A stretch of DNA of 64,000 bases from Pyrococcus sp. NA2 (GTDB lineage: Archaea > Methanobacteriota_B > Thermococci > Thermococcales > Thermococcaceae): contig NC_015474.1 in the NCBI RefSeq assembly GCF_000211475.1, forward strand, positions 372,001-436,000. Reading direction: 5' to 3'. Of the stretch, positions 9,789 to 16,026 are shown piece after piece. The translations under genes were made by a program, and so were the position numbers. The notes under the pieces are model-generated. The model ran no database searches and was not told where the DNA came from. It was given only the letters and a program-made list of their open reading frames with translations. How positions within the stretch are numbered: the stretch's first letter is position 1; each line of letters opens with the position of its first letter.

Positions 9789-10403
9789 ATGAAACCCAAT
9801 TATATAGATAAAATGCTTGTTGATAAAATAAAAAATGGTGATATAGTTATAATTGAGTACCCAAGCACGTTTCCAATTCATGAATTTCTATGGGGAGAAT
9901 TGGTAATGACGCTTATAGATGATTTTGACATAGTAATAGATGATTTTTTTGGACTCGGAGATGTACTTTTCAGGACATACCTTAGAAGGGTTCCTCCAAA
10001 GATGTATTCGGAGATAGTCGAAAAGATAATGGGAAAGGTAAAAGCAATTAAGATAGGACCAGGTAAAATAAGCTATACTGGATTCATTGAGGAGATTCCC
10101 TTAACCTATGACCTATCAGAGTTTATAAAGCTCTACTATCCTGGAATAAGAGAGATACTCACAAAGGCCTCCAAGAGGGTCATATTTATAACCGTTGGAC
10201 TGGCCGAATACTTATATTTCGGCGGAGATGAAGCTCTAAAGACGCTCCTCCTTAGTAGGAGTATACTGCCAATTGAAGACTGGACATCTGTTTACCTACT
10301 GAACACTAATCTAGCTCCAGAAAAGAGTATTGCAGCGTTAGAGGAGATAAGTCCCCTAGTGGTTTATCTTTCAAAAAAAGGAACCTTGGTGAAGAAGGAA
10401 TGA
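9789..10403 (+). CDS. DUF257 protein B
   Basis: 204 residues, second DUF257 member in the window; function unknown. It shows the family features: an N-terminal strand IVIIEYPST, the mid-protein KAIKIGPGKISYTG corresponding to VKVGG-I-TG in the paralogues, and RVIFITVGLAEYL later. I chose the ATG at 9789 (GGGGAG upstream; TATA TTTAAAAA near 9747-9754 puts the transcript start close to 9775); an in-frame ATG at 9771 is the alternative. It overlaps trmI by four bases (ATGA), so the two are coupled. Confidence 0.78.
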   Translation: MKPNYIDKMLVDKIKNGDIVIIEYPSTFPIHEFLWGELVMTLIDDFDIVIDDFFGLGDVLFRTYLRRVPPKMYSEIVEKIMGKVKAIKIGPGKISYTGFIEEIPLTYDLSEFIKLYYPGIREILTKASKRVIFITVGLAEYLYFGGDEALKTLLLSRSILPIEDWTSVYLLNTNLAPEKSIAALEEISPLVVYLSKKGTLVKKE

Positions 10404-11161
10404 TCAAAGAAGGGGACAAGGTAGTTCTGATAGATCCTAGAGGAAAAAAGTATTTAGTGACAATAACAAAGAAGGAGTTCCACACTGATCTCGGCGTTTT
10501 AAAGCTTGAAGAGGCAATAGGAAAAGAATTTGGAGAAGGGATAAAGAGCCATAAGGGGCATGAGTTCAAGATAATTAAACCTAGAATAGTTGATTTCCTT
10601 GATAAGATGAAGAGGGGGCCCCAAATAGTTCATCCCAAAGATGCAGCATTGATAGTAGCATATGCCGGTGTTTCTCCTGGAGACTTTATAGTTGAAGCAG
10701 GAGTTGGGAGTGGAGCATTAACACTGTTCTTGGCAAATATCGTTGGACCCGAAGGGAGAATAGTCAGCTATGAGATAAGAGAAGACTTTGCCAAGCTTGC
10801 CTGGGAAAATATCAAGTGGGCTGGTTTTGACGATAGAGTTACCATAAAACTAAAGGACATATACCAGGGAATCGATGAAGAGAATGTTGATCATGTTATT
10901 CTAGACCTTCCAGAGCCCGAAAGAGTTGTCGAACATGCTGCCAAGGCTCTAAAACCTGGAGGATATTTCGTTGCCTATACACCTTGTGCAAACCAGGTTA
11001 TGAGGTTACATGAGAAGCTAAGAGAGTTTAGAGATGTATTTCTAAAGCCAAGAACCATAGATGTCGTTGTGTTTGAACAGGAGGTTAAAAAGGATTGTAT
11101 AAGACCGAGAACAACAATATTGGCCCATACAGGATACATAACGTTTTCAAGAAAGAAATGA
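10400..11161 (+). CDS. trmI: tRNA (adenine-N1)-methyltransferase TrmI
   Basis: S-adenosylmethionine-dependent enzyme that makes m1A in the T-loop of tRNA; in Pyrococcus it is known to act on positions 57 and 58. 253 residues: an N-terminal beta-barrel-like domain, then a Rossmann methyltransferase with SAM motif I VEAGVGSGALTLFLA (about 98-112), acidic YEIRED after strand 2, and motif IV VILDLPEP with the conserved Asp. Coupled to the DUF257 gene by ATGA. A C/D guide RNA on the opposite strand begins right after the stop codon. Confidence 0.93.
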   Translation: MIKEGDKVVLIDPRGKKYLVTITKKEFHTDLGVLKLEEAIGKEFGEGIKSHKGHEFKIIKPRIVDFLDKMKRGPQIVHPKDAALIVAYAGVSPGDFIVEAGVGSGALTLFLANIVGPEGRIVSYEIREDFAKLAWENIKWAGFDDRVTIKLKDIYQGIDEENVDHVILDLPEPERVVEHAAKALKPGGYFVAYTPCANQVMRLHEKLREFRDVFLKPRTIDVVVFEQEVKKDCIRPRTTILAHTGYITFSRKK

Positions 11162-11219
11162 TCAGTTGAGAGGGGGCTCATCATCGAGGAGACTCTCAGG
11201 GTACCGTGAAGATCATCAC
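11162..11219 (-). ncRNA. Box C/D guide RNA (between trmI and tRNA-Val)
   Basis: Read on the minus strand: C box GTGATGA (11219-11213), 13-nt guide TCTTCACGGTACC, D' box CTGA (11199-11196), 11-nt spacer, C' box ATGATGA (11184-11178), 12-nt guide GCCCCCTCTCAA, D box CTGA (11165-11162). All four boxes match consensus and both guides have the length usual in archaea. The D' guide complements GGTACCGTGAAG, similar to the GTACCGTGA segment of 23S rRNA as I recall it, so rRNA 2'-O-methylation is likely. The only atypical point is the D'-C' spacer, longer than the usual 3-6 nt. Confidence 0.72.
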
Positions 11220-11234
11220 CAACCTTTAATTTCC

Positions 11235-11274: not shown

Positions 11275-11351
11275 GGGCCCGTGGTCTAGTTGGTTATGAC
11301 GCCGCCCTTACGAGGCGGAGGTCCGGGGTTCGAATCCCCGCGGGCCCACCA
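11275..11351 (+). tRNA. tRNA-Val (anticodon UAC)
   Basis: Complete cloverleaf: acceptor GGGCCCG pairs with CGGGCCC, D stem GTC/GAC, anticodon stem CCGCC/GGCGG with loop CTTACGA giving anticodon UAC, T stem CGGGG/CCCCG with TTCGAAT loop, discriminator A and an encoded CCA. No intron. Confidence 0.95.
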
Positions 11352-12957: not shown

Positions 12958-14718
12958 TCAAGTATTTAGATGAGCATCAAACTTGTCACTCTTCCCATAA
13001 TCTGCATAGCTCCTGTCCAACCTTTTGCTCACATAAGGACCATCTTTCCTATATCCAAATTTCCTATAGTATTCTCTCACCCCAACACCACTAATGACTA
13101 GTATCTTCTTCGCATCAAACTCCTCTCTAGCAATTCTCTCAGCCTCAGCTAAGAGCTCTCTTCCATAACCGCGATGTTGCCATTCGTATTTTGGCTTCTC
13201 TCCAATGGGAACCAGAGGACCATAAACATGGAGTTCCCTGACTATTGCAGAGGGACAACAATTTATCTCCTTTCTGTGGGCCTTTTCACTCGGTATTCTA
13301 AGCCTTAAAAAGCCTATTAGAATATCATTCTTAACGTCCTCGAAGCTGAGGAATATCTCCAGTCCTTCAGATGCCTCATAATCCTCCCTGAGCAACTTTA
13401 TGTGCTCAACCTCAGGAACCTTGCCAAATTTCTGCATCTGATGCCCTACTTCCCTAAACCTTATTTCCCTTGGCCTTATTCCCCTCCTTACAAGTTCATT
13501 GAACACTAATTGCCCTAGATTTGAGTGCTTAACCCCAGCAACTATAAGATGAGCTGGAATATCCCTTTGAATCCTCATCACCCTTACCCACTTCGGGAAG
13601 AATTTGTATGCTTCAACAATTAATTTAACAGCTTCTTCAGTGGTATAAGGCCTATATAGACCCGCTTTATACCAAGCATAGAGAGGGGCATCCCTCGTTA
13701 CTAGAGTTGGATATATCTTAAGCATGTCAGGTCTAAACCTCGGATCCTCAAATATCGTCTTGAAGGTGTAAAGATCTCTCTCAAAGTTGCTCCCAGGGAG
13801 ACCTGGCATTATGTGATAGTTAATCTTAAGCCCGGCGTCCTTTAGGAGTTGAGTTGCCTTCACGATCTCCTCAACACCATGTCCCCTCTTGGTTCTCTCA
13901 TGAATGAAGTTGAATATAGTTTGAACGCCGAGCTCAACCCTTGTAGTTCCGAATGAGAGCATTCTATCGATCTGTTTCTCAAAGGCCCAATCAGGTCTCG
14001 TTTCAATCGTTAATCCAACCATTCTAACCTTTGCCTTCTCGTTTTTCCTCTGCTCGTCCTCCAGATAATAGTAGGGTTTCCTATGAGTTCTCTCCCAGGC
14101 CTTTCTAAACTCAGGATCTTCGTCAAGAACAGATCTATCACCCTTAAGGATTAGGCGCACGAGCTTTTCCTCGAGGTTGTCTATGTCCTTGAAGTAGTGA
14201 AAGTCGTTCATAGCTTTAAATGCACACTTTATGAACCACTCCTGATAATCTAAGTCAACAGCTGGAAACGTTCCTCCTTGGATTATTACTTCAACCTTAT
14301 CTATTGGATGTCCTATATCATAGAGCTGCTTAAGTCTGGCCATCATGATTATGTAAGGATGATAGCCGTACTGGGAAGCCCTCAAAGCCGATGGCTCCTT
14401 CCCAGTGTAGCTCTGGGGTGAACCAACACTTGGCCCACCAGGACAGTAAATGCAACGCCCATGAGGACAGGGAAACGGCTTTGTCATCATTGCAACTACA
14501 GCTACGCCGCTGATAGTCCTAGTTGGTTTCTTCTTCAGGAGGTCTCTAAACTTCTCCCTCACGTCCTTAGGTAGAGCCCTCCAGATATCGGAATTCTTTG
14601 GTAACCTAGGTAAATGGTACTTCCTGGCAACTTCAATTTTTATCTTATTTAATTCTTCCCTATTCCTTATCTTTCCCGAGAGTAAGGCATTCACAATCTC
14701 ACGAACAGCCTCTTCCAT
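12958..14718 (-). CDS. elp3: Elp3-type tRNA uridine(34) acetyltransferase
   Basis: Radical-SAM/acetyltransferase that starts formation of the cm5U side chain on wobble uridine of tRNA. Radical SAM cysteines C84, C89, C92 (CPHGRCIYC, numbered from the start chosen here) are followed by the Elp3-specific core (GGTFPAVDLDYQEWF, VGLTIETRPDW) and a C-terminal GNAT domain (QHRGYGRELL ... YYRKFGY). Stand-alone as in other archaea without Elp1/2. I chose ATG 14718 (GGTGTGGAG upstream; 586 residues); ATG 14751 would add 11 residues but lies within a box C/D guide RNA that occupies the leader. Confidence 0.92.
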   Translation of the reverse strand: MEEAVREIVNALLSGKIRNREELNKIKIEVARKYHLPRLPKNSDIWRALPKDVREKFRDLLKKKPTRTISGVAVVAMMTKPFPCPHGRCIYCPGGPSVGSPQSYTGKEPSALRASQYGYHPYIIMMARLKQLYDIGHPIDKVEVIIQGGTFPAVDLDYQEWFIKCAFKAMNDFHYFKDIDNLEEKLVRLILKGDRSVLDEDPEFRKAWERTHRKPYYYLEDEQRKNEKAKVRMVGLTIETRPDWAFEKQIDRMLSFGTTRVELGVQTIFNFIHERTKRGHGVEEIVKATQLLKDAGLKINYHIMPGLPGSNFERDLYTFKTIFEDPRFRPDMLKIYPTLVTRDAPLYAWYKAGLYRPYTTEEAVKLIVEAYKFFPKWVRVMRIQRDIPAHLIVAGVKHSNLGQLVFNELVRRGIRPREIRFREVGHQMQKFGKVPEVEHIKLLREDYEASEGLEIFLSFEDVKNDILIGFLRLRIPSEKAHRKEINCCPSAIVRELHVYGPLVPIGEKPKYEWQHRGYGRELLAEAERIAREEFDAKKILVISGVGVREYYRKFGYRKDGPYVSKRLDRSYADYGKSDKFDAHLNT

Positions 14719-14731
14719 TCTCCACACCGTA

Positions 14732-14781
14732 TCAGCGCTGATAGATTTCATCACTCATTCAGCTCCCCGATTCCTCATCAT
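14732..14781 (-). ncRNA. Box C/D guide RNA in the elp3 leader
   Basis: Minus strand: C box ATGATGA (14781-14775), 12-nt guide GGAATCGGGGAG, D' CTGA (14762-14759), 4-nt spacer, C' GTGATGA (14754-14748), 12-nt guide AATCTATCAGCG, D CTGA (14735-14732). Every box is perfect and the 12/4/12 spacing is ideal for a Pyrococcus sRNA. It lies 14 bases upstream of the chosen elp3 start, so it is probably processed from, or transcribed together with, the elp3 mRNA. The guides complement CTCCCCGATTCC and CGCTGATAGATT; I cannot assign the target RNA. Confidence 0.78.
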
Positions 14782-14853
14782 CAAGACTCACTTTAAATAT
14801 GTAACCTCAAAATTTTTTTGCAAACCTAAGTCAGTTATCCCTAGGTGACTAAA

Positions 14854-16026
14854 ATGGCAAAGTTCTACATTGCAAGTGAAGAGGATATAAAGGCTGGTAA
14901 AACAACTGACGTGTACTTCATAAGAACGAAGAAGATACTTGAAGAGAAGGGAATAAGAAAGAAAGTTCTTGCCGATGTAACAACAACGAGTTTACCTAAA
15001 AATTGGAAATGGGGAGTCCTCGTTGGAGTTGAAGAAGTTGCAAAGCTTCTTGAAGGATTACCAGTTAACGTCTATGCAATGCCAGAAGGAACAATATTCC
15101 ATCCATATGAACCCGTACTCCAGATAGAAGGAGATTATGCCGAGTTCGGTATATATGAGACAGCTCTGCTTGGCATGTTAAGTCAAGCTAGTGGAATAGC
15201 CACCGCTGCACTTAGGATTAAGATAGCTGCAAAGTTCAAACCTGTTTATTCCTTTGGAATAAGGCATATGCACCCAGCAATTGCTCCAATGATAGATAGA
15301 GCGGCTTTCATAGGAGGGTGTGATGGTGTTTCTGGAGTTCTTGGGGCTGAAATGATTGGAGAGAAAGCCGTTGGAACAATGCCTCATGCATTAATAATTA
15401 CAATTGGAGATCAAGTGAAGGCCTGGAAGTATTTTGACGAGGTTATAGATAAAGAAGTTCCCAGGATAGCATTAGTAGATACATTCTATGATGAGAAAGT
15501 TGAAGCCGTGATGGCCGCTGAAACCCTTGGGAAAAAGTTATTCGCCGTTAGACTTGACACACCAAGCTCAAGAAGGGGGAACTTCAGGAAGATAATTGAA
15601 GAGGTAAAATGGGAGTTAAGTGTTAGAGGTTATGAGTGGGTTAAGATTTTCGTATCAGGAGGATTGGATGAAGAGAAAATAAAGGAGATAGTTGACGTTG
15701 CTGATGCATTTGGTGTCGGTGGTGCCATAGCCAGCGCAAAGCCCATTGACTTTGCCCTAGACATAGTGGAGGTAGAAGGCAAACCAATTGCAAAGAGAGG
15801 AAAACTCAGCGGCAGAAAGCAAGTTTATAGGTGTGAAAATGGCCATTACCACATTGTTCCAGCTGATAAAAAACTTGAGAGATGCCCAGTGTGCAACAGC
15901 AAGGTTGAACCCTTATTAAAGCCCATAATAGAAAATGGCGAAATCGTGGCTGAATTCCCGAAGGCCAGAGAGATAAGGGAATATGTACTCGAACAAGCTA
16001 GAAAATTCAATTTAAGTATAGAATAA
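14854..16026 (+). CDS. pncB: Nicotinate phosphoribosyltransferase
   Basis: NAD salvage: joins nicotinate to PRPP to give nicotinate mononucleotide. About 390 residues; landmarks are ASGIATAALRIKIAA, the SFGIRHMHPAIAPMIDR segment with the phosphoribosyl-site His/Arg residues, RLDTPSSRRG and the phosphate-binding FVSGGLDEEKI / FGVGGAIASAKP. A C-terminal zinc ribbon (CENGHYH ... CPVC) is added, as in the archaeal subfamily. I chose ATG 14854 with GGTGA five bases upstream, in preference to the GTG nine bases before it. A TATA near 14790-14797 is shared with the divergent elp3. Confidence 0.9.
   Translation: MAKFYIASEEDIKAGKTTDVYFIRTKKILEEKGIRKKVLADVTTTSLPKNWKWGVLVGVEEVAKLLEGLPVNVYAMPEGTIFHPYEPVLQIEGDYAEFGIYETALLGMLSQASGIATAALRIKIAAKFKPVYSFGIRHMHPAIAPMIDRAAFIGGCDGVSGVLGAEMIGEKAVGTMPHALIITIGDQVKAWKYFDEVIDKEVPRIALVDTFYDEKVEAVMAAETLGKKLFAVRLDTPSSRRGNFRKIIEEVKWELSVRGYEWVKIFVSGGLDEEKIKEIVDVADAFGVGGAIASAKPIDFALDIVEVEGKPIAKRGKLSGRKQVYRCENGHYHIVPADKKLERCPVCNSKVEPLLKPIIENGEIVAEFPKAREIREYVLEQARKFNLSIE

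Follow-up and report, generated by a model that had tools for sequence, protein, structure and literature searches.

A box C/D sRNA of family sR33 directly upstream of elp3 in Pyrococcus sp. NA2, with apparent loss of the elp3 promoter

Introduction

The arrangement of a C/D sRNA before a gene has already been documented in Thermococcales. In T. kodakarensis, 5'-UTRs contain 11 snoRNAs and 5'-coding regions a further 12, and 5'-UTR sRNAs that need to be released by processing have been reported (PMC4247193). A review covering six archaea gives a 5' overlap for 7% of the C/D sRNA genes, and transcription of a downstream reporter was lowered (PMC7994747). A k-turn in the 5'-UTR of its own mRNA lets L7Ae repress that mRNA in S. 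acidocaldarius (PMC5539422).

Here we describe an sRNA found upstream of elp3 in the window, a 64-kb stretch of the Pyrococcus sp. NA2 genome. Like the C/D sRNAs of 5'-UTRs and 5'-coding regions, it lies before the start of a same-strand gene and would be released by processing (PMC4247193, PMC7994747), but the downstream gene in the window has apparently lost its own promoter, as judged against 80 orthologues. With the L7Ae autoregulatory leader (PMC5539422) it shares an L7Ae-type binding motif near a Shine-Dalgarno element and a start codon; however, where that leader has one k-turn the window has an entire C/D RNA with two guides, and any repression would be hypothetical here. The locus combines a known sRNA family with a known kind of location, and its uncommon detail is the apparent loss of the promoter of elp3 itself.

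Materials and methods

Distribution was surveyed in 94 Thermococcaceae genomes, including that of Pyrococcus sp. NA2 (G000) and leaving out P. furiosus. Promoter-like elements were scored with a BRE/TATA matrix built from 23 tRNA promoters of Pyrococcus sp. NA2. For target searches, both guides were compared with 16S rRNA, 23S rRNA and the 44 tRNAs found, taking the fifth base from box D or D' and using shuffled guides as controls. A general Pyrococcus model supplied 30 C/D sRNAs of the genome, and the elp3 sRNA was added to these (31 in all).

Anatomy and distribution of the sRNA

The minus strand of the window reads, from 14781 to 14732, ATGATGA-GGAATCGGGGAG-CTGA-ATGA-GTGATGA-AATCTATCAGCG-CTGA, an exact 12-4-12 C/D layout. 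Its parts, with boxes and spacer taken from the sequence, are the following, G006 being the second genome that carries the sRNA.

14732–14781, minus: core of the box C/D sRNA sR33, bounded by boxes C and D (by Rfam and box pattern)
14775–14781, minus: box C, ATGATGA (GTGATGA in G006, keeping the consensus RTGATGA)
14763–14774, minus: D' guide, GGAATCGGGGAG, 12 nt (identical at 12/12 positions in G006)
14759–14762, minus: box D', CTGA (same letters in G006)
14755–14758, minus: D'–C' spacer, ATGA, 4 nt
14748–14754, minus: box C', GTGATGA, holding the in-frame ATG 14751–14749 (ATGATGA in G006)
14736–14747, minus: D guide, AATCTATCAGCG, 12 nt (5/12 bases differ in G006)
14732–14735, minus: box D, CTGA (same letters in G006)

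The 12-4-12 pattern occurs once in the 64-kb window, even when up to two mismatches are allowed, and in none of 100 shuffled windows. A cmscan search against Rfam matched RF01120 (sR33) at 14785–14730 on the minus strand with 50.6 bits (gathering threshold 37; E 5.5e-7 for the window), covering the model from end to end (1–55 of 55), and the genome holds one copy. On these sequence grounds the stretch is confirmed as a genuine C/D methylation-guide sRNA of family sR33, in agreement with the preliminary description, which had taken it for a 12-4-12 C/D RNA. Its D' guide and boxes agree with the family consensus, whereas its D guide, AATCTATCAGCG, differs from the consensus AAUcCGccAGcG and its D'–C' spacer is one base longer.

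Three neighbouring features are needed for what follows.

12958–14718, minus: elp3, start ATG at 14718 (TIGR01211, 896.6 bits; start aligned with orthologues)
14725–14728, minus: GGTG, Shine-Dalgarno-like element of elp3 (by sequence; GAGGTG at the same place in orthologues)
14854–16026, plus: divergent nicotinate phosphoribosyltransferase gene (NF006415, 603 bits)

Only two of the 94 genomes scored above the sR33 cut-off, namely Pyrococcus sp. NA2 and its congener G006, which we take to be P. horikoshii OT3, and in both the sRNA lies upstream of elp3. A search for box C and box D' together with the D' guide between them, allowing up to three mismatches, returned these two genomes with no mismatch and, besides them, three isolated matches with three mismatches. 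Weak sR33 matches in four other genomes had different guides and were set aside as other C/D sRNAs or chance. DNA alignment suggests that the same divergent nicotinate phosphoribosyltransferase gene flanks the sRNA on its other side in both carriers. Between these two genomes, at a divergence that has brought synonymous changes to 278 of 586 elp3 codons, no base of the D' guide differs and all four boxes keep to the consensus, while the spacer and the D guide change. Because the two carriers group in a tree of elp3 DNA, with a modest support of 0.73, the placement of sR33 before elp3 is likely, though not certain, to have arisen once, in their common ancestor.

The preliminary description had looked to conservation of the boxes in related elp3 leaders. 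The boxes are indeed kept between G000 and G006 but are absent from nearly all other elp3 leaders, and with 2/94 genomes carrying it we reject sR33 as a general or conserved element of the elp3 leader.

Candidate guide targets

The best fit of the D' guide is to the T arm of tRNA-Asn(GUU) and tRNA-Tyr(GUA), with C50 as the predicted nucleotide, and is equalled by 12.7% of shuffled guides. For the D guide no target in 16S, 23S or the 44 tRNAs rose above the shuffles, 45% of which did as well, and neither guide had an rRNA target above shuffles (best 23S fit 8.4, shuffled mean 8.2). The target search with both guides that had been proposed for this sRNA therefore left neither ahead of shuffled guides on rRNA or tRNA. 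The procedure can see targets, since it gave 0–5% for many guides of the other sRNAs of the genome. Genome-wide, the sole exact match to the sequence targeted by the D' guide was the sRNA's own complement, and matches with one mismatch were no commoner than for the reversed pattern.

We nevertheless argue that the D' guide probably has a target, because it is conserved; more generally, we infer a guide function for sR33 from conservation between the two genomes. TIGR01211 names Elp3 as acting on U34 tRNAs, a class to which the D' candidates tRNA-Asn and tRNA-Tyr do not belong.

Promoters and a probable shared transcript

Beside the elp3 start of the window the highest-scoring site reaches −6.1 bits, against 1.4 to 14.4 bits (median 6.4) for the 80 other orthologues, so that by this computational measure elp3 of the window stands alone among 81 orthologues in having no promoter-like element close to its start. 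The orthologue sites listed predict short elp3 leaders, mostly of 0–13 nt. In G006, a TATA element (TTCCAAATATTTATAAGC, 5.5 bits) lies in the 43-nt spacer between box D and elp3; the corresponding spacer of the window, from the end of box D to ATG 14718–14716, measures 13 nt and is 30 nt shorter, with the reading frame unchanged. The simplest reading would be a deletion, in the lineage of the window, of 30 bp that included the elp3 promoter. A gain of the promoter in G006 appears less likely, since a proximal site is present in every other orthologue.

Two sites lie upstream of the sRNA.

14805–14822, minus: weak BRE/TATA-like site, position −41 relative to box C, which may be the promoter of an sRNA–elp3 transcript (1.4 bits)
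14791–14808, minus: another TATA-like site, position −27 relative to box C, which would start transcription inside the D' guide (2.9 bits)

The −41 site has a counterpart in G006 at −42 from box C (2.1 bits), and in many other C/D sRNAs of the genome the highest-scoring site falls within the range −36 to −47, which supports the position, not the strength, of the candidate promoter; about 9% of random 34-base stretches reach its 1.4 bits. The bases at 14791–14808 score 3.4 bits on the plus strand, towards the divergent gene, which the −27 site may serve instead.

As the proximal elp3 promoter is missing in the window, a single sRNA–elp3 transcript is likely in Pyrococcus sp. NA2. This part of the linkage put forward in the preliminary description, in which making the sRNA from the elp3 transcript would couple guide-RNA processing to Elp3 expression, is retained. 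The functional link itself is unsupported: G006 keeps a separate elp3 promoter, neither guide points to U34 tRNAs, and several unrelated genes of the genome show the same layout, as do genes of a relative.

Proposed mechanism and alternatives

The explanation we favour, with a probability of about 0.62, is that sR33 is retained mainly for its D' guide and that the sRNA promoter also serves elp3, both being made from one processed transcript. Transcription would start a few bases before box C, thereby setting the 5' end of the sRNA directly, and would continue into elp3. L7Ae, Nop5 and fibrillarin would assemble on the boxes and shield the sRNA, which a cut or trimming just 3' of box D, near the GGTG element, would then free. 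The leader remaining on the elp3 mRNA would be at most about 13 nt, close to the 0–13 nt predicted for most relatives. Each transcript would yield the sRNA together with a short-leader mRNA, or the sRNA alone if the mRNA end is unprotected. As a passenger of the sRNA promoter, Elp3 would not require dedicated regulation.

It is possible, though in our judgement unlikely, that the two genes form separate units, with elp3 read from the 14791–14808 element, starting near 14770 inside the sRNA gene, and the sRNA read from 14805–14822, so that the RNAs overlap and share no common precursor. The −27 site does score slightly above the −41 site (2.9 and 1.4 bits), and in G006 the sRNA and elp3 each have their own promoter. 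However, the elp3 mRNA would then carry a leader of about 52 nt containing D', C' and D, unlike every orthologue, and read in the opposite direction, towards the divergent gene, the bases at 14791–14808 reach an equally high score.

An improbable alternative is that the boxes act in cis, with L7Ae or the whole C/D particle masking the Shine-Dalgarno element, so that Elp3 falls when free sRNP proteins are plentiful. Precedents are the repression of L7Ae in S. acidocaldarius by its own product through a 5'-UTR k-turn (PMC5539422) and the lowered reporter downstream of a 5'-overlapping C/D sRNA (PMC7994747), and only 13 nt separate box D from the ATG. Against such a switch, the elp3 leaders of nearly all relatives are without the sRNA, the predicted elp3 mRNA of G006 begins after the sRNA element, and the conserved D' guide would be unneeded by a pure k-turn switch. 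We have little confidence in a further proposal, confined to this lineage, according to which promoter loss tied elp3 to sRNA maturation: whether a stable guide RNA or a translatable short-leader mRNA results would depend on particle assembly, and the level of Elp3 would track the supply of C/D sRNP proteins.

G006 has separate promoters for the sRNA and elp3, and Pyrococcus sp. NA2 apparently does not, so these two related archaea offer a natural comparison. With it one could test whether embedding a guide RNA in the mRNA leader of an ancient enzyme of tRNA modification alters the expression of that enzyme, and in what way such layouts come about.

Start codon of elp3

The elp3 reading frame stays open upstream of ATG 14718 to GTG 14754 and ATG 14751, both inside box C' (598 aa ORF). 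All 81 placed orthologues, that of the window included, start within a few codons of the position of ATG 14718, and a GAGGTG-type element often precedes their start. The orthologues thus support ATG 14718 rather than 14751 as the start, which would fix it for Pyrococcus sp. NA2. The preliminary description had also placed the start about 14 bases past box D and the upstream ATG within C', as observed (ATG 14751–14749 inside 14748–14754).

Over the D guide, the window has the codons AAA TCT ATC AGC where G006 has AGA TCC GCC AAC (K/R, S/S, I/A, S/N), and G006 has ten further codons between these and the elp3 start. Within elp3, 278 of the 586 codons differ by synonymous changes only and 35 by non-synonymous changes. 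The stretch 14754–14719 is best read as RNA, with no visible protein constraint, because the in-frame peptide and the D guide diverge while the boxes and the D' guide are kept; a start of Elp3 at 14751 with coding constraint, the case that was to speak against the sRNA, finds no conserved upstream peptide.

A start of Elp3 at 14751 or 14754, with boxes that arose by chance within its N-terminus, is hardly credible and we reject it: the frame is open through the boxes and is kept in G006 despite spacers differing by 30 nt, but three of the four differing D-guide codons change the amino acid (against 35 of 586 in elp3), G006 has ten extra residues, the orthologues start at the homologue of 14718, and the box pattern appeared in no shuffle.

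Other C/D sRNAs and additional observations

Among the 30 C/D sRNAs picked from the genome, eight are accompanied on the same strand by a gene with Pfam support whose start falls within about −30 to +25 nt of the model end (9/31 with elp3). The eight genes encode an XPG nuclease (FEN-1-like), a Cas4-like protein, a PrsW protease, a cation efflux protein, a NUDIX protein, BtuR, a diphthamide synthase and a phosphodiesterase. The C/D sRNA at G000:C1:6047-6104 (plus strand; L231) ends 9 bases before the ATG of the XPG/FEN-1-like nuclease gene with GGTG between them, a layout like that of elp3, and has a perfect 12-base match to 23S. In the C/D sRNA at G000:C1:1718636-1718694 (plus strand; L256), the segment from C' through the D guide to box D overlaps, in frame, the opening codons of the diphthamide synthase gene (PF01902), and this stretch may double as guide and coding sequence.

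On the minus strand of the window, 14725–14762, comprising C', the D guide and box D, can fold as a hairpin (z −2.5) that would reach the GGTG element and would compete with C/D folding. This hairpin is not predicted in G006 and was chosen after inspection, so it is not relied on here.

The window holds a second C/D sRNA, sR42 (RF01127, 79.9 bits), at 11160–11223 on the minus strand. Its 3' end abuts that of a methyltransferase-like ORF (10400–11161, plus), and its 5' side faces a tRNA-Val gene (11275–11351, plus) about 50 bases off.
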